Source of the DNA: Leptolyngbya iicbica LK
GTDB lineage: Bacteria > Cyanobacteriota > Cyanobacteriia > Phormidesmidales > Phormidesmidaceae
Assembly: GCF_004212215.1 (NCBI RefSeq)
Contig: NZ_QVFV01000002.1
Coordinates: 1,426,727 to 1,482,035 of the forward strand
Direction: 5' to 3'
DNA length: 55,309 bases
Part shown: in pieces, positions 3,231 through 51,467 of the stretch
Layout of the letters: the number at the start of each line of letters is the position of its first letter
How positions within the stretch are numbered: position 1 is the stretch's first letter
Notes under the pieces: model-generated
Told to the model about the DNA's origin: nothing
The model's database searches: none
Seen by the model: only the letters and a program-made list of their open reading frames with translations
Made by a program: the position numbers and the translations under genes

Positions 3231-4348
3231 AAAAGGGTTTTTATCTTGTAAACGTCTTTAATTTAGGAAAACCTATTCTTGACCTAAACGGTTTTCATCG
3301 AAGGGAGTCTATTGTTCAATATTTGCGCACCTTCAAGTATCAGCAGATAGAGTTTTCTTCCTATAATGCATGGTGCAACGAATTTGGTAGCGTTATTGCT
3401 TTTAAGAAAATAGATTCCTGTCACAGTATTTCCGATGCAATGGAAGTATATAACAGCAGTGAAACCTTTGACCCCATATACAGAAAGTTTGTTGAGGATG
3501 CAAAGGAAAATCTTAAGTTTAAGGGAAAGGATAGTGATTATTCCTTCGTTTTTGGAATTTCAGACAGCTTTAGTAAGGATGAAATTTCTTGGAATCGTGT
3601 CTTTTTAAGGGAAAACTATTTGAATTTTTTCCTGCTTTTGGAAGCCATTTTTGTATATCAGCTTTGCAAGCTTTTAGAAGCGGAAATCTCAAGAGTTCCC
3701 GGTGAGATAGGTCGATTTTCCTGGCAAAGAAAGTTGGTTGAGTATACAGAGAATCTTTTCTCTCTTCAATATCCATCCCAGTTTCTCATTTACAATATTG
3801 AAATAGATTTTATGCAGGTTTTATACTCCGCTTGGGGTTTAGACAGTTATATTGCATCTCTGCGGTCAAGATTCGAACAATCCATATCTAGCTATACCTT
3901 CTACTGGGACTATCTTGAAAAGCAGAAGTCAGACACAATGAATATTTTATTGGCTGCCATTGCGATACTTTCTCTCTATGAAGCATTGCCAGTATTAACT
4001 AGTGTTTTCCCAGAAATCGACATGCTCTTAGTTAATGTAATTTTAATTGTTCTTGCTGTATCGGCAATCTTATGGGCATTTTGGGGCATTGCCATTCATT
4101 GGATTGGAGTGTCAACTTACAAAACGAGAAACCTTGTAAGTAATATCTCTATAAAGCGTAAAGTTGTACCAACCACTTTTGAAGTGGTTAACACATTTAG
4201 CCCACTCGCACCATCCGAGAACCAAGCCGACAAAGTAGAATCCGAAGAATCACTATTAGAGAAGCAACAAAATCTTAGTATAGGTGAGGAATTATGTGAT
4301 TTGGGGGCTCGGTTCATTTCGATTTTGAACAATTTTTGGCCCCGCTAA
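3218..4348 (+). CDS. Membrane protein of unknown function, partner of the metallopeptidase
   Basis: A 376-residue protein with no family I can name. Residues 1-235 look soluble and mixed alpha/beta. They are followed by two hydrophobic helices at about 241-260 and 269-295, then a ~75-residue charged tail. The layout (large N-terminal domain, long helical stretch, two close C-terminal helices) is reminiscent of CorA-type proteins, but no GMN motif is present. The ATG lies inside the end of the upstream peptidase gene (13-nt overlap), so the two are probably made together. Codon use and base composition match the peptidase and differ from the rest of the window. A role as membrane anchor, sensor or effector for the peptidase is inference only. 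Confidence 0.6.
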   Translation: MVPIEKGFYLVNVFNLGKPILDLNGFHRRESIVQYLRTFKYQQIEFSSYNAWCNEFGSVIAFKKIDSCHSISDAMEVYNSSETFDPIYRKFVEDAKENLKFKGKDSDYSFVFGISDSFSKDEISWNRVFLRENYLNFFLLLEAIFVYQLCKLLEAEISRVPGEIGRFSWQRKLVEYTENLFSLQYPSQFLIYNIEIDFMQVLYSAWGLDSYIASLRSRFEQSISSYTFYWDYLEKQKSDTMNILLAAIAILSLYEALPVLTSVFPEIDMLLVNVILIVLAVSAILWAFWGIAIHWIGVSTYKTRNLVSNISIKRKVVPTTFEVVNTFSPLAPSENQADKVESEESLLEKQQNLSIGEELCDLGARFISILNNFWPR

Positions 4349-4497
4349 TATCGCACTATACTATCTCGTCAGAATTAAGAATATCGTCGATTGAACGTTC
4401 GGATGACCGAAATTAGTTGCGATCTTAGTACTCGTACAATCAGTTACAAATATCTTGAAAAATTCAGGTAATTTGTCCAGAGTTGAGCTTTCCCGCA

Positions 4498-8226: not shown

Positions 8227-9765
8227 TTAGGGAGCCATTTCGAAACGCTGGCGAGCATAGTTCAAATTCTGCTGATATTCCTGAATTTTTTGCTGGGCCT
8301 TGGGAGCATTCACATCGTCACCGGGCACTTTTTTTAAGGCTTCGATCGCCTGCACCCACAAATTCGCCACTGTCTGCCACTCGGCTCGAGTCTGTGCCGT
8401 TTGGGTCTGCTCCGCCGCCTGCTGAGCGAATGTCATCGCTTTTTGGAAAGCCGGATCCGGGGTGCTGGTTGGGGTATCCAGTGGCGCATCCGAGGGCGAT
8501 GGAGCGCTATTGACCGATGCTGGAGGCGATGATGGCGCAGAATCTGTCGGTTCAGGTGCAGAGGGAAGTGGAGAGTCCGATGGTGAACCTGGCCACGGAA
8601 TAGACAACTGGGGTTGGGTGAGCCAAGTGGGAAAGCGCCATTCCCCCTCAACATAGGTGTAGCCGCCCCAGAGGGTGCCCAACGCCACGATCGCCCCCGT
8701 AATTGCCCCCGCAATCTTGAACGGACAATAGGGGCGATCGCCCACAATTTTTCCCGTTTCGCCATTAATCATGACTTGATACGGCTTGTTCTTAAAGCGA
8801 TAGGTGGCCATCCACACGGGCAGCAAAATATGCTTAAACGTCTCCTCTGTATAGGACGTGTCCTTAGAGTGGATACGTTGCTCATCACCGCCAATATCCG
8901 ACCGAATATCGGAGTCAATGTAGGAACCCATAACGCCCTTGGCCTTCGTAAAGCCATTGGGCAGGCTCACCTGATAGCGCTGCGCCCGAAAGCCTTGCAG
9001 AAAAGACGGGTCATAAGGGACCAGATTTTTTAAGGTCCAGGGGCCGATTTTTTGGAGGCGATCGATATCCACCGTCTTGACCGCTGGCACCAGAATGTCA
9101 TCAAAAAAGCGACTCACCTGCCCCGACGCAGAACTCCATCGGGTCCGGCGTTCTTCATAGGTTTCCGTCACCCACTCCCCATCGGAGTTCTTGACCCGGC
9201 GAGTTTTGGTGACGTAGTAGTAAGTGCCCCGTTCCCCCGTGTAACGGGTGCGAGTCTGACAGTCAAAAGTCCAAAACGGTAGATAGATCCCTTTGAGACT
9301 TTCGTGCTGCGCCAGTTGCTTCAAGCTGGAAGGCGCAAACCAGCGCGTACTCAGCCATTGACTCAGCCGCTGACGACCCGCTTTTCGCCCAATTTTGAAG
9401 GGCAAAACACCGCCGGGAGTAATGACCGGATTCGCGGTCTGGGCCTGAGCCGTAATGTGCGTGCCGCAAAAGGGACAGTCTCCCGCCACGTCGGGCGGCT
9501 CAAAGCTGATTTGGGCATGGCAGCCGTGACATTCCACCTCTAGGGCCTGGGCCGACAGCGGCGCAGTTTGGGCTTGATTGCTCCGCTGCTGCCATTCATC
9601 CAGAGACTGCTCTTCCACGGTTTTTGGCGAGCCCATAACCGTTTTGGCGCTGTTGCAATAGGGGCAGAGCAGCTTACCCAACGTCGGGTTAAAGACGAGA
9701 TCAGCACCACACCCCGAACACAGACACGCCTGGTTGGAGCGGGTAGACGTAGAAGACGTGGTCAT
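8227..9765 (-). CDS. Double zinc-ribbon membrane protein (YdjG-like)
   Basis: About 512 residues. Two consecutive CxxC...CxxC zinc ribbons (CSGCG/CPYCN and CHGCH/CPFCG) occupy roughly residues 15-105. A ~220-residue domain rich in aromatic residues follows, containing LPFWTFDCQTRTRYTGERG. Then come one membrane helix (AGAITGAIVALGTLWGGYTYV), a Pro/Ser/Asp-rich linker and a C-terminal coiled coil. Such proteins are often misnamed 'primosomal protein N'' because of the zinc ribbon. The gene lies just downstream of the SPFH gene on the same strand. The pairing resembles Bacillus subtilis ydjG/ydjI in the pspA operon, which suggests a membrane-stress role. An in-frame ATG at 9846, directly after the SPFH stop, is an alternative start adding 27 residues. 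Confidence 0.7.
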   Translation of the reverse strand: MTTSSTSTRSNQACLCSGCGADLVFNPTLGKLLCPYCNSAKTVMGSPKTVEEQSLDEWQQRSNQAQTAPLSAQALEVECHGCHAQISFEPPDVAGDCPFCGTHITAQAQTANPVITPGGVLPFKIGRKAGRQRLSQWLSTRWFAPSSLKQLAQHESLKGIYLPFWTFDCQTRTRYTGERGTYYYVTKTRRVKNSDGEWVTETYEERRTRWSSASGQVSRFFDDILVPAVKTVDIDRLQKIGPWTLKNLVPYDPSFLQGFRAQRYQVSLPNGFTKAKGVMGSYIDSDIRSDIGGDEQRIHSKDTSYTEETFKHILLPVWMATYRFKNKPYQVMINGETGKIVGDRPYCPFKIAGAITGAIVALGTLWGGYTYVEGEWRFPTWLTQPQLSIPWPGSPSDSPLPSAPEPTDSAPSSPPASVNSAPSPSDAPLDTPTSTPDPAFQKAMTFAQQAAEQTQTAQTRAEWQTVANLWVQAIEALKKVPGDDVNAPKAQQKIQEYQQNLNYARQRFEMAP

Positions 9766-9846
9766 GCGATGTACCTGGTAAGTCGATATCGCGTTTGGCA
9801 AGAGCGGTAACGAGTCGGCAAATCCTTGGCGGACTCGTCGATTCAT

Positions 9847-10968
9847 TTATTGCGCCATGGGGGGTGGGGGAGAGGCCGGAAAAAGACTGGCTAATTCGGG
9901 CAAGGTAGCGGCCTGTTGCCAGCCCGAGATGCCGTTGCGCCACACGTAAGACTGCGGCGTTAAACCATTGGCGAGCAGCTGATTCGTCGCAAAGGGGCCA
10001 AAGTTTTGTCCGTCGCGTGTGATGTACCACTGAGTCTGAGTCATGGGCGGCGGCGGTGCGCCCACAGCGACAGCTGGCGGTTGGGCCGGGGCGGGTTGCG
10101 CTGTCGCCATGTTGCCCTGCATCGCGTTGACGATTTGTTGGCCCATGGCCAGACCGACCCCCAGTTCCACCGCCTGATTGCCGCCATTGGGATTTTCCGC
10201 CGAGGCTTCGATCGCATTCGCGGCCTGATACTGGGTGTATTCCTGCATGTTGCCCAGGACGTTGATGGAAGCGCGGCGATCGAGGGCTTTTTCAACTTCC
10301 GGCGGTAGGGAAATGTTTTCAATCAGGAAGTGGGGCAAGGTGATGCCAAATTCTTCAATATCGGCCTGAATGGCGTTGCGGATGGTGTCGCCTGAAGCGC
10401 GATAGTTGGCGGCAAAATCGGCGAAATTCAGCCCCGATTGGCCCAACCAGGTGGCAAACGACGACACCAACATATTGCGAATCTGATCGCTGATTTCGTC
10501 AATTTGGAACAGGCCGTCGGTACTCACCAAGTCTTCCAATAAACGCACGGGGTCTTGCACCCGCATACTGTAGGTGCCATAGGCGCGAATGCGCACCGTA
10601 CCGCCCAAATCCGGCACGTTGATGGCGATCGGATTTGACGTCCCCCACTTTAAGTTAGTAAAAATTTTGGTGTTAAAGAAATAAACTTCGGCTTTGAAGG
10701 GCGAGTTAAACCCGTAGGGAAATCCTTTCAACGTGCTCAAAATCGGCATGTTTTGAGTGGAGAGGGTATACATGCCAGGATCAAAAGCGTCTGCGACTTG
10801 CCCTTCATTGACGAAAACCGCTTTTTGGCCGGGACGCACCGTCAGTTTTGCCCCCATTTTGATTTCGTTTTGAAAGCGCTCAAAGCGATAGGCGATCGTG
10901 TCGTTACTTTGATCCAGCCATTCGATAATGTCGACAAATTCGCTTGTCAGCTTTTCAAAAAGTCCCAT
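9847..10968 (-). CDS. SPFH-domain protein with C-terminal GYF_2 domain (YdjI-like)
   Basis: A 373-residue protein of the YdjI group of SPFH (stomatin/prohibitin/flotillin-like) scaffolds. The N-terminus MGLFEKLTSEFVDIIEW and LTVRPGQKAVFVNEGQVAD are typical of the subgroup. The SPFH core runs to about residue 260, followed by a Pro/Ala linker. The last ~55 residues (WYITRDGQNFGPF...W...A) form a GYF_2/DUF4339 module, a predicted peptide-binding domain. There is no membrane helix, so it probably sits on the inner face of a membrane. ATG 10968 starts at the conserved MGLF; a frame from 10992 exists but is less likely. It forms a two-gene unit with the downstream zinc-ribbon protein. Confidence 0.82.
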   Translation of the reverse strand: MGLFEKLTSEFVDIIEWLDQSNDTIAYRFERFQNEIKMGAKLTVRPGQKAVFVNEGQVADAFDPGMYTLSTQNMPILSTLKGFPYGFNSPFKAEVYFFNTKIFTNLKWGTSNPIAINVPDLGGTVRIRAYGTYSMRVQDPVRLLEDLVSTDGLFQIDEISDQIRNMLVSSFATWLGQSGLNFADFAANYRASGDTIRNAIQADIEEFGITLPHFLIENISLPPEVEKALDRRASINVLGNMQEYTQYQAANAIEASAENPNGGNQAVELGVGLAMGQQIVNAMQGNMATAQPAPAQPPAVAVGAPPPPMTQTQWYITRDGQNFGPFATNQLLANGLTPQSYVWRNGISGWQQAATLPELASLFPASPPPPMAQ

Positions 10969-11146
10969 GGCGCGATTTTCCAAAGAGTGCAATTGCGGCG
11001 GTCTGTCGCTAGGGTGCCCAGGTGTTGATGTCGAGACACAGTCCTTAACAGAAGGCCATCATTGGCAGATGTCTGTCGTCAACTGTCCTCGCCTGGCAAC
11101 CTCAGCTATGGGGCAAATACACAGAAAACGCCGGGAATTTCGCACA

Positions 11147-11220: not shown

Positions 11221-12648
11221 TTAATCATCAAAGTGTTTGATAATGGCTTGGGCAAATTCCGAACACTTCAGCGGCGTATCGACTTTAGGCTCCATCATGC
11301 GAGCCAGGTCATAGGTGACTTCTCGATTCGAAATCGCCGCGCCAAGCCCCTTTTTGATCAAGTCTGCGGCCTCTTGCCAGCCCATATATTCCAGCATCAT
11401 GACGCCAGAGAGGATGACTGAGCCGGGGTTGATGCGATCGAGTCCGGCGTGTTTGGGTGCCGTGCCGTGGGTCGCTTCAAAAATGGCGCAGGTGTCGCCG
11501 ATGTTGGCCCCTGGTCCCATGCCGAGACCACCGACGATCGCCGCTGCCGCATCCGACAAATAGTCTCCATTCAGGTTCATCGTCGCCAGAATGGAATACT
11601 CATCCGGGCGCGTCTGAATCTGCTGGAAAATGCTGTCGGCAATGCGATCGTTTACCATCACCTTGTCTTTCCACTGACCGTTGCCATGGGTTTCCCAAAT
11701 GCTGTTGAGAATGTCCTCAACCTCTTGGCACGCTTCCGCTTTTTTCTCCGCCGTCAGCGAGTCATAACCGGGTTCGACCTTGCGGGCGTTGTCTTCGATG
11801 GAAATATCGGGGTTGGCTTCTTTGTTGCTCAGCACCCAAGATTCCCGCTCGGTGACGCACTCATCGCGAAACTCCGAAGTTGCCAACTCGTAACCCCAGT
11901 CACGGAAAGCCCCCTCGGTGTACTTCATGATGTTGCCTTTGTGGACGAGGGTTACTTGCTGCTTGTCTTTGGGCAATCGCAGGGCATGTTTCATGGCACG
12001 ACGCACCAGACGCTGGGTGCCAAATTTGCTGATGGGCTTGATGCCAATGCCCGAGTCGAGGCGAATCTGCTTTTTGCCGTGCTCTGGGGTGCCCGGAATC
12101 AAGTCTTCGTTCAGCAGCTTGATAAGGCGATCGCAGGTCGGGTCGCCCATCTTCCATTCAATGCCCAGGTAAATGTCTTCGGTATTCTCCCGATAGACAA
12201 TCACATCCAACTTGTCGGGACTTTTGTGCGGTGAGGGAGTCCCGGCGTAGTACTTGCAGGGACGCACACAGGCATACAAATCATTAATTTGGCGCAGCGC
12301 CACGTTAAGCGAGCGAATACCGCCGCCCACGGGGGTCGTCAAAGGACCCTTGATCGCCATGCCAAAGTCTTTGATCGCCTGAAGGGTATCTTCGGGCAAA
12401 TATTGGTACTGCCCGTATTGCTCACAAGCCTCGTCACCGGCATAAACTTTAAACCAGACAATGCGCCGTTGGGTGCCGTAGGCCGCCGCCACTGCGGCAT
12501 CAAACACGGCTTGGGCCGCTGGCCAAATATCCACGCCCGTGCCATCGCCTCGAATGAACGGGATGATCGGCATGTCGGGAACAATCGGCTCACCCTCCTT
12601 GAAGGTGATTTTTTCGCCAATGGTGGGGGGAGTTATGCGTTCATACAT
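11221..12648 (-). CDS. icd: NADP-dependent isocitrate dehydrogenase
   Basis: A 475-residue enzyme that oxidatively decarboxylates isocitrate to 2-oxoglutarate with NADP+. It supplies the carbon skeleton for ammonium assimilation, and in cyanobacteria 2-oxoglutarate is the nitrogen-status signal. Recognisable segments are [16 protein letters not shown], the substrate loop [27 protein letters not shown], and the NADP/metal region [16 protein letters not shown]...[13 protein letters not shown]. The length agrees with cyanobacterial Icd. ATG 12648 is chosen; an in-frame GTG at 12654 would add two residues. It is monocistronic with its own terminator and divergent from gun4. Confidence 0.96.
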
Positions 12649-13052
12649 AGGCACTACGCGGAAAATAATTTGAGCTAAGCAACGCTAGCTTACGATAGTC
12701 CTAACAGTGTGGACACCCCTCTTTTTTTTCAGTGCTGAGGACTACGGAACCAAAGGTCGGAGCTAATGCGGGGGCGAGATCGCCCGACTCCTCGCCCTAA
12801 AACACTTTGCTAGTGGGCGATCGCGAGCCATCCCCCTACATCTCACAGGCTGTTAAATCTTTCTAGAAATCTACCGTGAACAACCCGGGGACACAAAAAT
12901 CCTCCCTAAAATTTTCCAAATTCTCGGAACCCCTGGTTTAGCACGCAGCTTGGGTTGTAGGATCATCAAATGCGGATCAGGCTTGTTTCAGCATTTCGCT
13001 ACAACTGATCGGCCCGTTAGTGAACCTCTGGATACTCGATTTTCGTCAACGT
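12649..13052. promoter_or_regulatory. icd/gun4 divergent spacer
   Basis: About 400 nt between two divergent genes. It contains a HIP1 site (12817-12824), a GGGCGAG/CTCGCCC stem (12772-12778 / 12791-12797) and a T-rich run near 12720. No convincing NtcA box (GTA-N8-TAC) was found by eye. No gene is seen. Confidence 0.35.
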
Positions 13053-13787
13053 ATGAGCAGTTCTATCGCCAATAATTCATCCGCTTCTTTAGAACTGCTG
13101 GAATCTCTGAAAGGTCAGCTCCGAGACGCATCTCTCAAGCAGCAGTTGGCGGCTTTGCCGCCGCTCATCGAAGCGGGCGATCTGGGCTACCAAATCATCA
13201 TGGACTTTTTGCGTACGGCCAAAGAGCAGGCTACCCCTTCAATCGCAGCGGGGCGATCGCTGCAATGGCTAGCTGCGATCGAGCATCAAGAAGTGCAATC
13301 CTTTATCAACGAACACTTTGCCACCGGGGTAGTGAGCTTATCACCAGAGTGCAGTGTCGACTATAGCGAAATCCAAACCGCCCTAATCCAACAAGATTTT
13401 GAGCTAGCCGACCGACTCACCTTACAAAAAATGTGTGAGCTGGCAGGTGAAAACGCCATCAAGCGCAAGTGGCTCTACTTCACCGAAGTCAACCTCTTCC
13501 CAATCATCGACCTGCAAACGCTAGATCAACTCTGGCTCATCTACTCTGAAGGCAAGTTTGGTTTTTCAAAACAGCGCGAGATCTGGCTAGGGGTCAGCAA
13601 AAATTGGGAAAAGTTTTGGCCCAGAATTGCCTGGAAAAGCGACAACATCTGGACTCGTTATCCTGGCGAGTTCATCTGGAGCTTAGAAGCCCCCGTTGGG
13701 CACTTACCGCTCACGAACCAACTCCGTGGTGTACGAGTCATGGATGCGCTGATGAATCATCCAGCGTGGACAACAACTGCTAGCTAA
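13053..13787 (+). CDS. gun4: GUN4 tetrapyrrole-binding protein
   Basis: A 244-residue GUN4 homologue, which binds protoporphyrin IX and Mg-protoporphyrin and stimulates magnesium chelatase, the first committed step of chlorophyll synthesis. The N-terminal helical-repeat domain (about residues 10-90) is characteristic of cyanobacterial Gun4. The porphyrin-binding core follows, with LIQQDFELADRLTLQKMCELAG, a FPIIDLQTLDQLWLIYSEGKFGFS stretch and WPRIAWK. The length fits Synechocystis Gun4. ATG 13053 is preferred; the frame is open from a GTG at 13020. GUN4-domain proteins fused to kinases exist, but this one is the stand-alone form. hemH, which acts on the other branch of the pathway, is ~5 kb away. 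Confidence 0.9.
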   Translation: MSSSIANNSSASLELLESLKGQLRDASLKQQLAALPPLIEAGDLGYQIIMDFLRTAKEQATPSIAAGRSLQWLAAIEHQEVQSFINEHFATGVVSLSPECSVDYSEIQTALIQQDFELADRLTLQKMCELAGENAIKRKWLYFTEVNLFPIIDLQTLDQLWLIYSEGKFGFSKQREIWLGVSKNWEKFWPRIAWKSDNIWTRYPGEFIWSLEAPVGHLPLTNQLRGVRVMDALMNHPAWTTTAS

Positions 13788-14410
13788 ACAGCAACCCTTT
13801 GCGTCTACGGTTTAGCGACACGACTTTACCAGGACACCCTTTAATCACCCACCTCAACATAGAAACGGATTCACAGGGATGAACTCTCTATGAGCAGGGA
13901 AACAACTTTTCAAGCGTCCCCCTTCAAGCTATCCGCTAATGATGCAAGCTGCCATGAGCTAGCTCGCATCTACACTGATTTTCATTAGTGACACCTGAGA
14001 ACCCAATTTTTGGCCGCGGTTTTCGTTGTGATGTTTCGGCCTTCAGCCCGCCCTCACCCAACCAGTGGGGGCTACTTTACCCCCCTCAGACTTGCTGGAG
14101 CGTCATGTCCCGCGATGTCAATCAACGTTCTACGAAAACTTGCGCAGAAACCCAAGCATCACCCTGAGTAGGCTGAGGTTTATCCGTACAAATTCTGTTG
14201 GCTAGTACAACCAGAAGGAGTCAATTTATGGATATAACAAGCAAATTCCCGAAAAACTTCTGTTATCAAACAAGAAGTCAGTAATAACCACGAGTTCTGC
14301 TGATAAGAGACGGAAAAGTCAGGATATTTCTTACTTTTAGGTTTAGGCAGGGATCAACTCCGGGAATGCTTTAGATAAGTTTGGACAAGCCAGGGCACTT
14401 GGTAACACCT
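13788..14410. other. Long spacer upstream of the GAF pseudo-kinase
   Basis: About 620 nt without a recognised gene. It holds one short frame with a strong ribosome-binding site (14228-14284, listed separately). The region just before 14411 is the likely promoter of the pseudo-kinase. No tRNA or known regulatory RNA is seen. Confidence 0.4.
14228..14284 (+). CDS. Candidate 18-residue small protein or leader peptide
   Basis: ATG preceded at 7 nt by a perfect AAGGAG (14215-14220) opens an 18-codon frame, MDITSKFPKNFCYQTRSQ, with stop TAA. The ribosome-binding site is better than that of most genes nearby. It lies ~125 nt before the GAF pseudo-kinase in the same direction. No homologue is recognised, and a chance occurrence cannot be excluded. 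Confidence 0.3.
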   Translation: MDITSKFPKNFCYQTRSQ

Positions 14411-15868
14411 ATGAAGCAGTCTATTTCATTAGAAACTGAAACCTACACCGCTCCGAGACAGGTTTCCCCGCATTTTTCGCCATCTTTAAGCCAGGCCAGC
14501 TTGCCCAGCACACTAGCACCGGGGACGCAGTTGGCTGATATCGACTTTCCATTATTTGAAGAAGCAACGCAAACGGCAGCTCGTTTTTTGCAGGTTCCGG
14601 TCAGTTTTATTGGTCTCATTACTCCTGAGACTCTAGTGCTCAAGGCGGCTGTTGGCCTATCTCAATTGGGGTTAATGAATCCTCTGGCTCGAACCCGTCG
14701 TTTGTCCTTACGAGACAGCTTGATCGACACTGTGTTGTCAACCCAGCGCAGTTTAGTTCTCTCAGATATTTCTGAAGAAAGTCCTTATGCCGAGTCTTGT
14801 CTAGTACAAGAATATGGCATTTGCTCTTACATTGGCATTCCGTTATTGACTGCCGACGGGCAATGTTTAGGCCTACTGACAGTAATGGACACAGTCCCAC
14901 ACAGCTTTGCGACAGAGATGATTGCCTTTGTAGAGTTGTTAGCTCGATGGAGTGTCAGTGAGTATGAGCGGCATCATCTCGCGATCGCATTATCACAGTC
15001 TTCACCTCAAGCGGCTACCAGTAACTCTCACACGGCCACAACCAACGACAACTTGCTCGATACGGTGCGACTGACCTTAATGAGTCAACTGACTCAAGAC
15101 ATGCGCAATCCGCTCACGACGATTACCGGCATGGCCAGTATGCTCAGCCGTGAAATTTATGGAACGTTGACACCCAAGCAGCGCGAGTATGCCGATATCG
15201 TCCACACCAGCAGTAAGTATTTGCTAGAACTTGCCAACGAGGTATTAGAGCTCAGTGGCTTAGATGCCCGGATGCAACCTTTGCAGCCCACCAGCGTGGA
15301 TGTCGATATGATTGGCCAACATGTCGAGCGGATGCTACTTCCTATGTTGGCGGAGAAAAATCAAGAACTCCGCTTTACAGTCGAACCCGGTTCACGGGTT
15401 TGGACCTTAGACCGTGATGTTGTTAGATATTTGCTCTACCACCTGTTGTTCAGCATTATTCAATTGGCCGGCGAAGGCGGCACTCTGCAAGTTCACAGCG
15501 CCGAACGCGACAGCAGTCTCAATATCAGCATTAAAATGACTCATCCCTGGCTTGGCGATGGACTGCCTAGCTTAGTCGCCGACCTGCATCGCAAACTTGA
15601 GCAACCAGATCAAGAAATTGATTTATTAACTCGGTTGCTGGCAAGGGCGACCGGTCGAGAAGATTTTACAAATAGCGACTCTGCCGATGCCCATGACTTT
15701 GAACCGAGAGCGGAAATCACCCAGTCTCGCGAGACACTGGCCCTCTTACTCAGCCGTCATCTCATCGAACGTCATGGTGGCCTGCTTTGCTTACAGGGCA
15801 AGCCTGATACTGGCTACCGCTTTATGATTACCTTGCCTTTCTTAAAGATGGCTGCAACTGCTAAATAA
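14411..15868 (+). CDS. GAF-domain histidine-kinase homologue lacking the phosphoacceptor His
   Basis: 485 residues. A GAF sensor domain spans about 45-185 (PLFEEATQTAARFLQVPVSFIGLI...SYIGIPLLTADGQCLGLLTVMD), followed by a linker and a HisKA-like helical hairpin from about 215. The H-box reads TQDMRNPLTTI where active kinases have SHELRTPL, so the phosphorylated His is Gln229. The ATP-binding part is also eroded. The N-box Asn is absent (RDVVRYLLYHLLFSII), and the C-terminal HLIERHGGLLCLQGKPDTGYRFMITLPF is the only well-kept piece. It should be unable to autophosphorylate and may act as a ligand-responsive scaffold or allosteric partner. No response regulator is adjacent. ATG 14411 is chosen over TTG 14381. 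Confidence 0.78.
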   Translation: MKQSISLETETYTAPRQVSPHFSPSLSQASLPSTLAPGTQLADIDFPLFEEATQTAARFLQVPVSFIGLITPETLVLKAAVGLSQLGLMNPLARTRRLSLRDSLIDTVLSTQRSLVLSDISEESPYAESCLVQEYGICSYIGIPLLTADGQCLGLLTVMDTVPHSFATEMIAFVELLARWSVSEYERHHLAIALSQSSPQAATSNSHTATTNDNLLDTVRLTLMSQLTQDMRNPLTTITGMASMLSREIYGTLTPKQREYADIVHTSSKYLLELANEVLELSGLDARMQPLQPTSVDVDMIGQHVERMLLPMLAEKNQELRFTVEPGSRVWTLDRDVVRYLLYHLLFSIIQLAGEGGTLQVHSAERDSSLNISIKMTHPWLGDGLPSLVADLHRKLEQPDQEIDLLTRLLARATGREDFTNSDSADAHDFEPRAEITQSRETLALLLSRHLIERHGGLLCLQGKPDTGYRFMITLPFLKMAATAK

Positions 15869-16001
15869 AAATAGTTTAGGCACAGTGATTATTGGACAGT
15901 TCAGTGCTTGCTGAAAGATCGCAGCGGCACCTAGCTGATGCAATCTATTGGGGGGCGCTAACACTTCGCCCATAAAGGTCTCCGGCGATAAATGAAGCGC
16001 C

Positions 16002-16035
16002 CTGCAGCCACCTTATGAATCCTAAGTGGCTGCAG
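16002..16035. repeat. Perfect 10-bp inverted repeat between convergent genes
   Basis: CTGCAGCCAC (16002-16011) and GTGGCTGCAG (16026-16035) flank a 14-nt loop and overlap the stop codon of the TauE-like gene. There is no strong T-run on either side. It may block read-through between the pseudo-kinase gene and the convergent permease gene. Confidence 0.5.
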
Positions 16036-16816
16036 TTTGCTGCCAAGCTTGCCACAGCGTGTAGACAATTAACACCGCTAACAACGTGCGAAAGAGAATT
16101 GAGACGACCTGATCGGGTAACTTCGGCAAAAGGCGTGTGCTCAACTGAGCGCCAATTAATCCCCCCAATCCTAGAATAATGCCGCCGACCCAAACCACGT
16201 TGCCCTGCAGAGCGTGCCCAAAGGTAGAGGCGATCGCGGTCAGCACAATCACCCCTAAGCTGGTTTGAATCGATCGCTTAATCGTTTCTCCCAGCAGCAA
16301 CATCTGTAAGGGCACCATAATCACGCCCCCGCCAATCCCCAGCAGCCCCGCCAGAAAACCGGCGATCCCCCCCGTCAATATCCGTGCCGCAGTCGGGTTC
16401 ATGGCCGCCTGCGGTGGTCCGACGAGTTCGCCACTGGCCGATTGCTTCGCCAGTTTCTTCCGCACCCCGACCAAATAGATGTTGAGCATAAGCAGTAGCG
16501 CAAACGCCAACAGCAACAGCGATTGGGGCAAAGCACTGGCCACCAATACACCAATCTGGGCCGTGATGACCGCTGGCAACCCCAGCAACAAAACCCGTTT
16601 GAAGTCTAAGTAACCCATGCGCCAGTTTTGAATACTGCCAGACAGCGACGTGATGATAATCGATAGGCTACTGGTCGCGACGGCTTGAATGGGTGAATAT
16701 CCCAACGTAATCAAGATTGGGACTAACACCGTGCCTCCACCAATGCCTAGCAGCCCTGCCAACACACCGGCAAACAGACCAGCAATGATAAACGCACCAA
16801 TTTGAATCGGGGTCAA
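16022..16816 (-). CDS. TauE/SafE-family sulfite or anion exporter permease
   Basis: A 264-residue, very hydrophobic protein with about eight membrane helices. The family's two internal repeats are visible as GVLAGLLGIGGGTVLVPIL near residue 17 and AGFLAGLLGIGGGVIMVPL near residue 155. The family exports sulfite, sulfoacetate or related organosulfur anions across the inner membrane; the substrate here cannot be told from sequence. The start is TTG 16816 (MTPIQIGAF), supported by a GAGG about 8 nt upstream and no alternative ATG nearby. It is transcribed away from the TRAP binding-protein gene. Confidence 0.85.
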   Translation of the reverse strand: MTPIQIGAFIIAGLFAGVLAGLLGIGGGTVLVPILITLGYSPIQAVATSSLSIIITSLSGSIQNWRMGYLDFKRVLLLGLPAVITAQIGVLVASALPQSLLLLAFALLLMLNIYLVGVRKKLAKQSASGELVGPPQAAMNPTAARILTGGIAGFLAGLLGIGGGVIMVPLQMLLLGETIKRSIQTSLGVIVLTAIASTFGHALQGNVVWVGGIILGLGGLIGAQLSTRLLPKLPDQVVSILFRTLLAVLIVYTLWQAWQQTAAT

Positions 16817-18502: not shown

Positions 18503-19666
18503 CTACAGTAAGCCCACTAAATGCAGCGGTCCATGACCACTGATCAATTCCACCATTAGCGCCAAAAAACCGACCATCGCTAGCCGACCGTTCCAGACTT
18601 CGGCCACTGGAGTAAGCCCCCAAGCGGATCGCTCCTGTGGATAAATCTTGACTTGCTTGTCCGGTTCAACCACATCGGAAAAGAGCCGCCGAGGTGATTC
18701 TAAAGACTCCATGACCATCTTGGCCATGTCATCAATGAAGCCCGGATGAGTGTTCAAGGCGGGCACGCGTCGGAAGGTTTCGATACCAGCTTCCTCGGCA
18801 ATTTCGCGATATTCCATATCGATTTCTTGCAGCGTCTCGATGTGTTCAGATACAAAGCTGATGGGGACGACGACTAAATCATTGACGCCTTGCTCGGCGA
18901 GTTCTTCGATCGCATCTTCAGTGTAGGGCTGCAGCCACTCGACGGGGCCAACCCGACTCTGGTAGGCCAGGGTGTGCTGGTTCGATCGCCCCAACGCCTG
19001 CATGATTAAATCAACGCAGTGTTCGATCTCACGCTGGTAGGGGTCGCCATTTTCTTCGACATAGCTAACCGGGACGCCATGGGCGCTAAAGAAAACATGT
19101 CCTTTACTGGGATCGGGAAGTTGATCCAGCTCTTGAGCGATTAACTCGGCCATGGCCTTCACATAGCCCGGACGCGCATACCAGGAAGGGATCACGGTGT
19201 AGCGAATGCTTTCGAGAGAAGGATCTTCTTTCCACAGCTTTTGCAGTAAACGAAAGCTAGAACCGCTGGTGCTGATGGAGTATTGCGGGTAGAGCGGCAA
19301 GACAACGAGTTCTTCAATGCGATCGCGCTTGATGCGGGCGATTGCTTCCTCCGTAAATGGATACCAATACCGCATACCGATATAAATATCGGCTGGCTGA
19401 CCAGCCGCTTCTAAACTCTGTTGTAGGGCTGTGGCTTGCTGCTCGGTAATGCGACGGAGAGGAGAGCCCCCCCCGATTTGGCTATAGTTTTGTTGGGACT
19501 GCTTAGCCCGACTGTTAGAAATCAGCCACGCTAATGGCTTTTGCAGCCAGGGTACTGGGAGGCGAATAATCTCAGGATCGGCAAACAAATTGAACAGAAA
19601 CGGGCGCACATCCTCCAGCTGCTCTGGCCCACCCAAGTTCAACAGCAATACCCCTACACGGCCCAT
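18503..19666 (-). CDS. hemH: Ferrochelatase with C-terminal chlorophyll-binding (CAB-like) helix
   Basis: A 387-residue enzyme inserting Fe2+ into protoporphyrin IX to make haem. The N-terminus has [11 protein letters not shown]. The catalytic His lies in [20 protein letters not shown] and the conserved Glu in [18 protein letters not shown]. The last ~35 residues form a membrane helix with [17 protein letters not shown], the ExxNxR-type chlorophyll a/b-binding motif that cyanobacterial and plastid type II ferrochelatases carry. In the family this tail aids dimerisation and pigment binding. The gene is divergent from pdxA and convergent with the TRAP gene. Confidence 0.95.
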
Positions 19667-39333: not shown

Positions 39334-41301
39334 ATGTCTTCACCTCAAAATCTGCTGGGGGGGCGTTATCAATTTATCCAAGCCCTCAACGCGCATCCGT
39401 CAGGCAGGACCTTCCTGGCAGCAGATGTGCACTATCCAGGGCATCCCAAATGCGTGGTGCGAGAGCTACGCTTGCCAACCCGGAATCCGATGACGCGGCA
39501 ATTCATTTTGCGGCTGCTCAAGCAAAAAGTCGCCATGTTGGAGGAAATTGGTCAACATCCCCAAGTGCCCGATACCTCGGCCGCGTTTGATGTGGATCAG
39601 AGCTTTTTTATCGTTCAAGAATTTATCCCCGGGCAATCACTGTTAGATTTGCTGGCGGCGTCTGAGCCCTGGACGGTGCAGGAAGCGATCGCCTTTCTGC
39701 AAGCCATTTTGCCGGTGCTACATTTTGCCCAAGACCACGGAGTCATCCACAGCAATCTCAAGCCTTCGAAATTGATTCGACATCATACCGACAACCAGTG
39801 GGTCGTGCTAGATTTTGGCTCCATCAAAAATATTAGTCAGCACATTGCGGGCAAACAAAAAGGCCAAAACGGCACCAACGGCAATGAGCGGCAGAGCTCA
39901 TCAGTCTATGTCGCCCCCGAGCAATATCAACACCAAACACTCTTTTGTAGTGACCACTACGCCCTTGGCATGATTGTGATTCAGGCGATGACGGGGCGCG
40001 ACCCGAAGGAGCTACCGCAAGTACAGGCTCCCAACCGCCATGAACAATTGACGGCGATGCTCCGCAGTGTGCCCAAAATGTCTCCAGCCTTTGCCAATCT
40101 GCTGCTGCGCATGGTGCACGCCCACCCACAGCGACGCTACCAAAAAGCTGCCGAAATCTTAAACGATTTAGAGGATCTGCTAGACGTTCCGGAGGTCTCA
40201 GCCATGCCGCCAGAAAAAGCGGTTGCTGATTCGCCCACTCCGCGTCCCGTTGAGAGCACCCCCACCGACCCACCCTCCGGGCGATCGCGGCGGCCGGGGC
40301 TCGTGCCGATATTGGGGGCGGTGGGTGTGGTCGCGTTCATTGGTCTGGCAACCGTGCTAGGACTCAAATTGCCCCAGCGGCTGGCCGCCCAACGCCAGAT
40401 TGCCCAAGCCGAAGCGATCGCCACCGAAGACCCCGCAGCCGCTATCGCCGCCTATTCTCAAGCGCTAGAGCAATTACCTCAGCAACCTGAAACCCTGGCC
40501 GCTCGCAGTCAGCTCTATTTTGAGCAGGGCGATGCCCAAGCGGCTTTGACAGATATTTCTGACGCGATCGCCCAAGCTCCCGACCATCCTGATTACCGCT
40601 ACAGTCGCGGTAACTTTCGGTTTGCCATGGGCGACATTCAAGGGGCGATCAACGACTACACGCAAGCCCTTGAGCTTGACCCCACCTTGACCAAGGCTTA
40701 CGTCAATCGGGGCAGCGCCCGCGCCGACTGGGGCGATGACCGAGGCGCGATCAACGACTACACCCAAGCCATTGACCTCGCCACCGACTCCGACACCGCT
40801 GCTGCGGCCTATCTCAATCGGTGTTTGTCCTATTCCAACTTAGACGAGCAGGAGTTGGCGCTGAGTGACTGTTCGACCGCGATCAACCAGCGGCCGAGCC
40901 ATGCCCTGGCCTATCAAAATCGGGGCCTAGTGCGCCGCCGATTGGGCGATTTTCAAGGCTCCTTGCAGGATTACAACATTGCAATTCAGATTGACCCCAA
41001 TAGTCCCGATCCGTTTTATAACCGGGCGCTGACCCGCCAGGCGCTGAATGATCAGCCCGGTGCAATGGACGATTTGAGTCAAGCGATCGCGATCGACCCC
41101 ACTTATGTGTTTGCTCGGTACGATCGCGCCCTACTGCATATCGACATGAACAACCCCTCAGCGGCGCTGCAAGATTTGCAAGCGGCGGCGCAACTATGCC
41201 TCGACCTGGGCCGCACGGGCTGCTATGAAGATGCCCAATTCCAAATCTCTCAACTGCAAAACGCCGCCGCACCAGAGTCCGATGCCGCAACACTAGAATA
41301 A
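39334..41301 (+). CDS. Membrane-anchored Ser/Thr pseudokinase with C-terminal TPR repeats
   Basis: 655 residues. Residues ~10-285 have a protein-kinase fold, but the catalytic residues are changed. The glycine loop is degenerate (LNAHPSGRTFLA). The ATP-anchoring Lys is Arg43 (CVVREL). The catalytic loop reads HSNLKPSK, with Asn141 replacing the Asp and Lys146 the Asn. Only DFG (160-162) and APEQ survive. A membrane helix spans about 323-345. Residues 355-640 hold about seven TPR units (for example YSRGNFRFAMGDIQGAINDYTQALELDP), predicted on the far side of the membrane. It probably senses or scaffolds rather than phosphorylates. Contrast the intact kinase at 52683-54515. Confidence 0.85.
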   Translation: MSSPQNLLGGRYQFIQALNAHPSGRTFLAADVHYPGHPKCVVRELRLPTRNPMTRQFILRLLKQKVAMLEEIGQHPQVPDTSAAFDVDQSFFIVQEFIPGQSLLDLLAASEPWTVQEAIAFLQAILPVLHFAQDHGVIHSNLKPSKLIRHHTDNQWVVLDFGSIKNISQHIAGKQKGQNGTNGNERQSSSVYVAPEQYQHQTLFCSDHYALGMIVIQAMTGRDPKELPQVQAPNRHEQLTAMLRSVPKMSPAFANLLLRMVHAHPQRRYQKAAEILNDLEDLLDVPEVSAMPPEKAVADSPTPRPVESTPTDPPSGRSRRPGLVPILGAVGVVAFIGLATVLGLKLPQRLAAQRQIAQAEAIATEDPAAAIAAYSQALEQLPQQPETLAARSQLYFEQGDAQAALTDISDAIAQAPDHPDYRYSRGNFRFAMGDIQGAINDYTQALELDPTLTKAYVNRGSARADWGDDRGAINDYTQAIDLATDSDTAAAAYLNRCLSYSNLDEQELALSDCSTAINQRPSHALAYQNRGLVRRRLGDFQGSLQDYNIAIQIDPNSPDPFYNRALTRQALNDQPGAMDDLSQAIAIDPTYVFARYDRALLHIDMNNPSAALQDLQAAAQLCLDLGRTGCYEDAQFQISQLQNAAAPESDAATLE

Positions 41302-43115: not shown

Positions 43116-43793
43116 ATGCGCATCCTGCTGGTCGAAGACGACCCCGAACAACTCGAACCCTTACAGGCGGCTCTGACCCATGCTGGCCATGTGGTAGATG
43201 CGATCGAAGATGGCACCACCGCTCGCTGGCTGATGGGCGAAAAAGAGTACGACCTGCTCATTTTCGACTGGATGCTGCCGGGGGAGGATGGCCTTTCCCT
43301 GTGCCAGCATTACCGCCAAGAGGGCAAAGCCGCTCCCGTTCTCATGCTGACTGCCAAAGACACCAGCGCCGATAAGGTCATGGGCCTGGATGCCGGAGCC
43401 GACGACTATCTGGTGAAACCTGTAGATTTAGAAGAACTGCTGGCCCGAGTGCGAGCCCTGCGGCGGCGATCGCCCCTCTGGTGTGGCGACCTGCTGCAAG
43501 TGGCCGACCTGGTGCTTTACCTGGATACAATGCGAGTGACGCGAGGAGATAATAGCTTGAAGCTCTCCAGCCGCGACTTTCAGCTAATGGAATACCTGCT
43601 GCGCCACCCCCATCAGGTATTGACCCACGACCAGATCGAGCAGGCCCTCTGGCAATGGGGCTCAGAGCCCGAAAGTAACGCCGTAGCGGCTCGGGTTAAA
43701 CGGCTGCGTCAACGCCTGCGAACTTTAAACGCCGACACCTGGATCGAAACGGTCTATGGTGCCGGTTATCGCCTCGCCCCTCCCGCTTCCTGA
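43116..43793 (+). CDS. OmpR-family response regulator
   Basis: A 225-residue transcription factor. The receiver domain (1-120) has DD at 8-9, the phosphoacceptor Asp51 in IFDWMLPGEDG, the switch Thr in LMLTAKD and the Lys in DDYLVKPVD. The C-terminal winged helix (130-222) has LKLSSRDFQLMEYLLRHPHQVLTHDQIEQALW and VYGAGYRL. It ends 3 nt before the kinase gene, its likely partner. Targets are unknown; the flanking secreted protein and FAS1 lipoprotein are candidates. Confidence 0.94.
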   Translation: MRILLVEDDPEQLEPLQAALTHAGHVVDAIEDGTTARWLMGEKEYDLLIFDWMLPGEDGLSLCQHYRQEGKAAPVLMLTAKDTSADKVMGLDAGADDYLVKPVDLEELLARVRALRRRSPLWCGDLLQVADLVLYLDTMRVTRGDNSLKLSSRDFQLMEYLLRHPHQVLTHDQIEQALWQWGSEPESNAVAARVKRLRQRLRTLNADTWIETVYGAGYRLAPPAS

Positions 43794-43796
43794 CCT

Positions 43797-45317
43797 ATGG
43801 CAAATCTGGCTCGACGACTGTATCAGCCCTGGCAAAACCTGCCGATTCGAGTACGCGGCGCGGTCATTATTGCCATTCCGGTCACCTGCATGTTTACGGC
43901 TCTGTCGGCCTTTGCCTGGCTCAAAGCCAGTATGGCTGAAGATGAAACCTGGGTGCAGCATACCCAAGCCGTGCGGTTCGAAACCAAGCGACTGGTCAAG
44001 GCCCTGGTGGATGCCGAGACGGGGGTGCGCGGCTACGGTTTGACCCGTCGCGAAGAGTTTTTAGAGCCCTACGAGTGGGCTCAAACCGAAATCCCCAGTG
44101 CCCTGAATCGCCTCGAAACCCTGGTCAGCGACAACCCACCCCAGGTCGAACAGGTGCAGGCCATTCGCCAGCTAGCGGACGAAAATCTGGCCATTTTTCA
44201 GCAGAAGTTATTCCTCAAGCAAGAACTGCAACTAGTCCAGGGAAAGCCCAATACCCTGGTGCCCGCCGCCGATCTCTACGCCTGGCTGGAGGAGGGCAAA
44301 GAGACGATGGACACCGCCAGAGAAGCGATCGATCGCTTCATGGCGGTGGAAGAAGCGCTGCTGGCCGAGCGGATTCAGCACCGCGATCGCTATCAGCAGG
44401 TGGCCTGGCTGGCCCTCTGTTTGCTGGTGGTGATTGGCACCCTGGCGGCTCTCTTCGCCCTTCATCTGCTGCACCAGCTCGAGCGAGAACTGGCCGACCG
44501 CGCAGACAATCTCAAAACCACCAACCACCGCCTGGAAAACGCCTGCGACCAGCTCCAGCGGTTCACCGCTAACGCCTCCCACGAACTCCGCGCCCCCCTG
44601 GCTGCCGTACTTAGCAATGCCCAGGTTGGTCTCATGGCCATAGAAGACTTTGAGCAGGAGTTTCCCGACCCCGACGACCAACCCAGGGGAGTCCGTCCGC
44701 GCCTGGAAAATATCGTGAATCTGACCAAAAAGATGAGTACCCTGGTCAGCGAGCTGCTGTTTCTGGCCCGCCAGGAAGGGCTACTGGCCCCAGAAGACCT
44801 GCAGACGGTGGATTTAACCAACTTGCTTGCGCAACTGGTCAGCGATTGGCAGACCGAAGCCCAGGTCCATGACCTCCAACTATCGTCAGAACTGCCACCG
44901 ACAGCCGTTCTGGTAAATGCCGACCCCAATTTACTGCGTCAGGCCATCACGAACCTGCTCAGCAACGCTTGTCGGTACACCCCCGCCGGAGGCCACATCC
45001 AGCTGCGGTTGCTGCAGCGGGAACAGCAGGCCTTGATTGAGGTGCAGGATACCGGCATTGGCATTCCCGAGGAGTCACTGCCAATGATTTTTGAGCGATT
45101 CTATCGAGTTGACTCTAAGCGAGCCAAAGCCTCTGGCGGGTTGGGGCTGGGGCTGGCCATTGTGCAACAAATCGTGCAGGCTCATCGGGGCCATGTTGAT
45201 GTGACCAGCCTCCTGGGAGAAGGGTCAACATTTGCCATTTTCCTGCCTCTGGCAATGGTCGAATCAGAACCCATTCAAGCGATCCCCCTGGTGACATCAA
45301 TTCCAACAATCGACTGA
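43797..45317 (+). CDS. CHASE3-domain sensor histidine kinase
   Basis: 506 residues. Two membrane helices (about 20-42 and 203-222) flank a periplasmic CHASE3 sensor domain with the signature [24 protein letters not shown] coiled coil leads to HisKA with the phosphoacceptor His262 in [16 protein letters not shown]. The ATPase follows, with N-box [18 protein letters not shown]1 [10 protein letters not shown]-box [10 protein letters not shown] and G2 [10 protein letters not shown]. All catalytic boxes are intact. It is co-transcribed with the preceding regulator. The CHASE3 ligand is unknown. Confidence 0.94.
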
Positions 45318-51394: not shown

Positions 51395-51467
51395 TACCCC
51401 CAGGGGAATTCGAATCCCCGTCGCCTCCGTGAAAGGGAGGTGTCCTAGGCCTCTAGACGATGGGGGC
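51395..51467 (-). tRNA. trnE: tRNA-Glu (UUC)
   Basis: A 73-nt cloverleaf on the minus strand. The acceptor stem GCCCCCA pairs with TGGGGGT plus discriminator A. The D arm is GTCTAGAGGCCTAGGAC. The anticodon stem CCTCC/GGAGG encloses CTTTCAC, giving anticodon TTC. The T arm is GGGGATTCGAATTCCCC. CCA is not encoded. Besides translation, tRNA-Glu is the substrate for glutamyl-tRNA reductase at the start of tetrapyrrole synthesis, which feeds hemH and the chlorophyll branch where Gun4 acts. Confidence 0.97.

Follow-up and report, generated by a model that had tools for sequence, protein, structure and literature searches.

A gene in the genome of Leptolyngbya iicbica LK raises the question of what a histidine kinase homologue does once the phosphorylated histidine itself is missing. 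The gene lies at 14411..15868 on the + strand of the stretch of DNA that was analysed (55,309 nucleotides; hereafter the window), and an earlier note on it had read the product as a pseudo-kinase and had assigned it, by inference, the role of a sensor scaffold. Starting at the ATG the product has 485 residues, and an in-frame TTG at 14381 would extend it to 495; from either start the reading frame runs uninterrupted to the stop at 15868, in agreement with the note's description of a frame fully open across 485 codons (485-495, depending on the start).

Domain architecture and the altered catalytic boxes

The GAF sensor domain occupies 14543..14980 (+; residues about 45-190, from Pfam and the predicted structure), with a Pfam match of E 1.6e-12 over residues 58-189 of the 495-aa form; together with the open 485-aa frame, this upholds the earlier description of a GAF domain and an overall length that are intact. 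HisKA is matched at E 5.7e-14 (residues 231-296 of the 495-aa form), a DHp helical hairpin extends over 15041..15268 (+; residues 211-286) in the predicted structure, and the Pfam match to HATPase_c is weak at 15.6 bits, under the cut-off of 26.4. The predicted structure contains complete GAF, DHp and CA domains (mean pLDDT 79.4), and the HisKA and HATPase folds are both present, as indicated by the Pfam HisKA match and by the model with PDB matches across both domains. With GAF and HisKA above cut-off, the protein would by its domain content alone be mistaken for a functioning sensor kinase.

Structural matches in the PDB to the transmitter part (residues ~202-480) include GacS (Z 17.8, rmsd 5.7, 231 residues aligned), DivL (Z 16.4, rmsd 5.4, 213 aligned, residues 211-477), the RetS-GacS complex 7n0e (Z 16.1, rmsd 4.1, 190 aligned) and RetS. 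DivL has no advantage here over active kinases, which fit the model equally well (CusS, Z 16.7; HK853, Z 16.4). The GAF domain is matched by that of a diguanylate cyclase (4zmu, Z 18.2) and also by PtsP, PixJ and phytochromes. The bilin chromophore Cys of phytochrome and cyanobacteriochrome GAF domains presumably falls at column 127 of the alignment, a column placed by eye; the window protein has Ala there, and Cys does not figure among the residues most often seen at that column. Its own GAF has Cys at columns 130 and 138, and Cys at 130 occurs in 4 of 86 family members; of the 82 members that can be read at the column of Cys152 in the GAF, 77 have Cys.

The catalytic boxes were located by aligning the protein with 20 canonical kinases from its own genome, in which the box residues (second N-box Asn, G1 Asp, first G2 Gly) are present in 19-20 of the 20. 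The H-box of the window protein reads LTQDMRNPL and places Gln229 (numbered in the ATG form; codon 15095..15097, +) at the phospho-acceptor His position, just as the earlier note had reported. The N-box, canonically NLLxN, has degenerated to HLLFS (15440..15454, +; residues 344-348), with H and S in place of its two Asn; the note had seen the N-box Asn go, and the damage to the ATP site proved greater than it said, extending to the G1 Asp and to G2. The altered G1 box, MTHPWLGDGLP (15536..15568, +; residues 376-386), has M for the Asp and an insertion, HPWL, ahead of GxG, both G1 glycines being retained behind the insertion. At the G2 box RETLALLLS (15728..15754, +; residues 440-448) stands where GTGLGLxI is canonical, and the three glycines have become R, T and A. 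Since the His and most of the ATP-box residues are lost, kinase activity is very unlikely, and we infer that neither autophosphorylation nor ATP binding of the usual kind is possible for the protein. To judge from the sequence, the gene encodes a pseudo-histidine kinase, the fold of which is kept, the catalytic residues of which are lost, and which is conserved in evolution.

Extent, conservation and selection of the family

A first protein search covered 59 related genomes; 46 of them yielded matches at the level of the family, and these were aligned. A profile built from 33 members was then run on 388 Cyanobacteriia genomes. The profile matched 238 genomes, of which 182 hold family members at E ≤1.8e-90 (hand count) and 56 (best E 7.3e-46 to 2.2e-31) were excluded as non-members, leaving a gap in E-values between 1.8e-90 and the best non-member at 7.3e-46. 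In a sample of the phylum, 77 of 386 genomes matched at E ≤ 1e-60, all from the class Cyanobacteriia; the number of sampled genomes outside that class was not given by the search. Within the genomes searched, the family has so far been found only in cyanobacteria.

Conservation was read from an alignment of 86 members, one per genome, made up of the 46 from related genomes and 40 picked for family spread; 34 of the 86 genomes belong to one family. Second copies within a genome (L001, L004, L008, L009 and L050) were left out of the counts, and L157, a fragment without the H-box, is the sole gap at the phospho-acceptor column. In a Leptolyngbya sp. SIOISBB MAG (G005, same genus; L002, L008, L050) the gene lies in two frames, which represents either a break or an assembly error.

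The phospho-acceptor column contains Gln in 75 of the 86 members, Glu in four, His in two, and R, D, I and S in one each. The His is absent from 0.9% of HisKA domains generally (722/76,471; PMC12632262, available in part) versus 83 of the 85 readable members of this family, and chance is therefore excluded. The earlier note had called for such an alignment of orthologues, and had taken His at this site in them as the sign of a single-strain mutation. In substance the two His members, L029 and L149, give no such sign: in a FastTree phylogeny of the DHp-CA region they are nested among Gln or Asp members, and both are without the same ATP-box residues as the rest of the family, so that their His resembles a reversion. 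The HATPase_c score of L149 is slightly over the cut-off (28.6 vs 26.4 bits).

At the ATP site the second N-box Asn is found in 3/85 members, the G1 Asp in 0/85, the first G2 Gly in 0/86 and the second in 3/86. Part of the site persists, namely the two G1 glycines (76/85 and 56/85) and the third G2 Gly (60/86). Near the former ATP site the family has motifs of its own, EPGSRxWxLDK, YHLxFS and [HN]PWLG[ED]GLP, and [HN]PW is present in 76 of 86 members. The DHp core is kept as Q-[E/D]-L-R-[T/N]-P, with an acidic residue (E/D) at +1 from the Gln site in 76/85, T/N at +4 in 67/85 and both in 65/85; in HisKA kinases these two positions are linked to dephosphorylation of, and contact with, the response regulator. 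Length is 445-582 aa in 80 of the 86 members, and the family is monophyletic relative to the 20 kinases in the DHp-CA tree, where its support is weak (0.62).

Rates of substitution were estimated as Nei-Gojobori dN/dS with our own script. Between the window gene and its nearest relative, L005 (86% identical), dN/dS is 0.077 at dS 0.98, and by domain 0.060 for the GAF, 0.027 for the DHp (residues 216-300) and 0.057 for the CA; the close pair L006 and L007 gives 0.064 at dS 0.16, with 0.024 for the DHp, which is the most constrained part of the protein. Purifying selection of this strength rules out a recent pseudogene, as the earlier note had held, and the prevalence of Gln among the members agrees with it. 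What the note called a pseudo-kinase almost certainly represents a stable family of them, and the gene product is, as far as its residues can tell, a stable and old cyanobacterial pseudo-histidine kinase.

Relatives that have no GAF domain, with frames of ~300 aa, occur in seven genomes of family f34 in the phylum sample. They keep the DHp and the pseudo-CA, which points to retained function in the transmitter part. Two of them were read, at positions 3546-4430 (-) of L163 (295 aa) and 3516-4409 (-) of L164 (298 aa); both have Gln at the site, one was checked by Pfam, and each lies directly upstream of ictB.

Orthology with Hik2/CSK was weighed first because of the GAF domain, the length and the precedent of Glu in plant CSK. 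Like these proteins, the window protein is a soluble GAF-DHp-CA protein, and at the His site CSK has Glu in plants and Tyr in green algae (PMC2677595, available in part), whereas Hik2 possesses all histidine-kinase motifs including the His (PMC4751278, in part). The orthology was rejected, for a separate Hik2-like gene with His, L142, is found on another contig of the same genome, with the H-box LLHQLRSPL, a GAF domain and intact boxes including G1 and G2; its existence as a separate gene means that the pseudo-kinase family is not Hik2. L142 is called Hik2-like by its H-box and domains, not by a tree, the Hik2 H-box as taken from a mutagenesis primer being DLLHQLRN (PMC4751278, in part); a degenerate DNA pattern for this H-box gave one match, outside any kinase gene. 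In Hik2, a laboratory His185Gln exchange abolishes labelling (PMC4751278, in part), as would be expected if a protein with Gln at this site no longer autophosphorylates. The Gln of the family is thus the very substitution by which Hik2 was silenced experimentally.

Gene neighbourhood and candidate partners

Upstream of the window gene lies gun4 (13020..13787, +; Pfam GUN4 and GUN4_N), the most recurrent upstream neighbour found in the family. Its stop is separated from TTG 14381 by 593 bases, so that no operon is evident in the window. A scan of the whole window for an RNA that might account for this gap turned up a single hit at threshold, a tRNA at 51395-51467; predicted promoter and terminator sites in 13700-16050 were fewer than in shuffled sequences (1 vs a mean of 2.4, and 1 vs 2.2).

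Flanks were counted where at least 1300 bases were present, which applied to 81 of the 86 genomes upstream, 79 downstream and 75 on both sides. On this basis gun4 lies upstream on the same strand, no more than 1 kb away, in 25/81 genomes, and an ictB-family gene lies downstream, at the same maximum distance and again on the same strand, in 22/79; among the 75 with both flanks, 10 have both genes, 34 have either and 41 have neither. Of the 29 families sampled, 14 have gun4 in at least one genome, 15 have ictB and 18 have at least one of the two. Throughout 110 loci, all 32 gun4 and all 25 ictB matches fall on one consistent side and on the same strand as the pseudo-kinase, and the shortest spacings, stop codon not counted, are ~10 bases for ictB (L171) and 73 bases for gun4 (L066). 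The identity of the neighbours was confirmed in 3/3 IctB proteins tested, which score over the NCBIfam cut-off (TIGR00947), and in 2/2 GUN4 proteins tested besides the window's, which score over that of Pfam.

Other neighbours lie farther out, among them smpB (14/68 loci, mostly convergent) and an adenylyltransferase gene (9/68); relatives of the isocitrate dehydrogenase gene of the window (11221..12654, -) are divergent near gun4 in 11/68 loci. Five genomes of family f1 (L057, L059, L060, L067, L068) have other conserved divergent neighbours, namely a gene that is Ser/Thr kinase-like by eye from its opening sequence and three further shared genes. The window itself contains a second tetrapyrrole gene, for ferrochelatase (18503-19666, -; Pfam E 4.1e-122), 2.6 kb from the pseudo-kinase; ferrochelatase was not recognised in the neighbour clusters common to at least three of 68 loci.

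GUN4 is a control point of chlorophyll synthesis. The gun4 and ictB neighbourhood points to a role in tetrapyrrole (GUN4) and inorganic-carbon (IctB) physiology, and a functional link between the pseudo-kinase and these genes is likely. The literature searched, which lacks most subscription papers, contained no description of the family or of the gun4-ictB linkage, and no paper combining ictB and gun4; the linkage is probably new here.

A LuxR-type response regulator is found beyond gun4 in 9/68 loci, from nine families; counted by hand, at least 25 genomes have it on the same strand no more than 3 kb upstream (the intervening gun4 was read in nine). In its receiver domain the acidic residues, the phospho-Asp, the Ser and the Lys are invariant. 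Hand counts, confounded by shared ancestry, give the pseudo-kinase in 101 of the 117 genomes that have this regulator (it is absent from the other 16) and in 81 of the 271 without it. As an obligate partner the regulator was rejected: at E ≤ 1e-60 it is absent from the window's genome and from the genomes of family f32, which may be Nostoc-like and which mostly carry the pseudo-kinase. Missing as it is from genomes with the pseudo-kinase, it would be an optional partner at most. Its identification as Rre1 was also rejected, since its consensus begins MKRILVVDDD versus VGLSLL in the published Rre1 primer (source available in part); against NCBIfam, all of the matches listed (25 of 89) were below cut-off. 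In three f1 genomes (L053, L063, L064) the next gene downstream on the same strand encodes an OmpR-type response regulator, a candidate partner. A two-component pair in the window (43116-45317, +) consists of an OmpR-type response regulator and, after it, a CHASE3-HisKA-HATPase_c kinase, with every domain of the pair over cut-off.

Proposed mode of action and its alternatives

Our overall reading, to which we give a probability of roughly 0.6, is that of an ATP-independent pseudo-histidine kinase with a DivL-like logic, in which the GAF domain would gate a conserved docking surface on the DHp. The protein would work as a dimer; its GAF would sense a small molecule or a redox cue, and the signal would shift the DHp bundle together with the CA domain in its new role, such that the DHp surface binds or releases a two-component partner, a response regulator being the likeliest. 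With the Q-[E/D]-x-x-[T/N]-P core retained, the regulator could be docked, and perhaps dephosphorylated, without ATP. Because the DHp is extremely constrained and the E/D-x-x-T/N core is retained, it is probable that the DHp still docks a two-component partner, and we lean slightly toward a response regulator over another kinase. These two features speak for a putative DivL-like binding of a phosphorylated regulator by the DHp, without kinase activity. Tetrapyrrole (GUN4) and inorganic-carbon (IctB) physiology would, by the neighbourhood, be what the protein helps to coordinate.

The family is present in about half (182/388) of the Cyanobacteriia genomes searched and is tied by context to GUN4 and to a putative bicarbonate transporter, and it is a candidate link by which cyanobacteria might adjust pigment synthesis to the supply of carbon. 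A more ambitious form of this idea is speculative, and we consider it doubtful: the protein might be the missing sensor that couples GUN4 tetrapyrrole synthesis to IctB carbon uptake without phosphorylation, its GAF receiving the cue and its DHp/HPWLG-CA holding or dephosphorylating a regulator, which in many lineages would be the LuxR-type one of the same ancestral cluster.

To our knowledge, pseudo-histidine kinases established as stable families are few, DivL and plant CSK being the known examples. We rate the window protein as belonging to a known kind; new about it are the Gln, where the known examples have Tyr or Glu, the ATP site, which is altered further than that of DivL, and the recurrent photosynthetic gene neighbourhood. 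The pseudokinase form of ChrS from Corynebacterium differs in architecture and is a version of a single kinase, not a long-lived family. It resembles the present case as a pseudokinase version of a histidine kinase, and is linked to heme tolerance (PMC9491836, in part). DivL of Caulobacter shares with the family the DHp and CA fold and a non-His residue that is conserved at the phospho-acceptor site, and it recognises phosphorylated DivK while having neither kinase nor phosphatase activity (PMC4211667, in part). It is thus the precedent for a transmitter without His that has become a reader of a phosphorylated regulator, although its want of phosphatase activity, in spite of the boxes it keeps, counts against our reading. 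By comparison, DivL has Tyr at the site and PAS domains, whereas the window family has mostly Gln and a GAF; DivL also keeps the H, N, G1, F and G2 boxes save for the His, whereas in the window family the Asn of the N-box, the Asp of G1 and most of G2 are gone (PMC4211667, in part). The structural match of DivL to the window protein is no better than that of active kinases.

The DHp might also serve to contact a kinase. RetS of Pseudomonas, the DHp and CA fold of which is among the structural matches of the transmitter, offers a precedent for control through kinase-kinase contact; it retains its His and is membrane-bound. A co-receptor of this kind would complex with and tune an active kinase, in RetS-GacS style, instead of docking a response regulator. 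The matches to RetS and to the RetS-GacS complex are consistent with such a role, as are the constraint on the DHp, the want of any universally linked regulator, and the many possible partner kinases in the window's genome (76 HATPase_c matches, not all of them kinases). We regard it as unlikely, however, for similarity to RetS is common to HisKA kinases in general, and no second histidine kinase was recognised in the clusters common to at least three of 68 loci. In sequence, the kinship to RetS is at the level of HisKA (E 5e-7).

Somewhat more remote is a GAF ligand sensor tied to GUN4 and tetrapyrroles with no two-component contact at all, the transmitter of which would be a dimer frame or would dock GUN4 or an enzyme. 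The recurrence of gun4 upstream would fit such a sensor, and so would the conserved motif of the CA, about [HN]PWLG[ED]G, which replaces the G1 box. It accords poorly with the GAF-less members of f34, the two of which that were read still adjoin ictB, and with retention of the E/D-x-x-T/N core in most of the family.

It is highly improbable that the protein is an active kinase that relies on a different residue, along the lines proposed for plant CSK. Plant CSK has lost its His and autophosphorylates on serine (PMC6949291 and PMC2677595, both in part), and the G1 glycines of the window family are mostly kept; against this stand the near-complete loss across the family of the second N-box Asn, the G1 Asp and the first two G2 glycines, and the finding that in Hik2 alteration of either G1 glycine abolished labelling, with a similar effect apparently described for G2 (PMC4751278, in part). 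A single-strain mutation or a decaying pseudogene, to which the lost catalytic residues and the two frames of the G005 gene might be ascribed, can be dismissed in view of Gln in 75/86 members, a dN/dS of 0.077 and a length of 445-582 aa in 80/86 members.

Further features of the window were noted in passing. In the product of 39334-41301 (+) a Ser/Thr protein kinase domain is joined to numerous TPR repeats, and a 539-aa open reading frame at 8227-9846 (-), with no Pfam match at 1e-5, lies beside a gene for a Band-7/GYF_2 protein (9847-10992).
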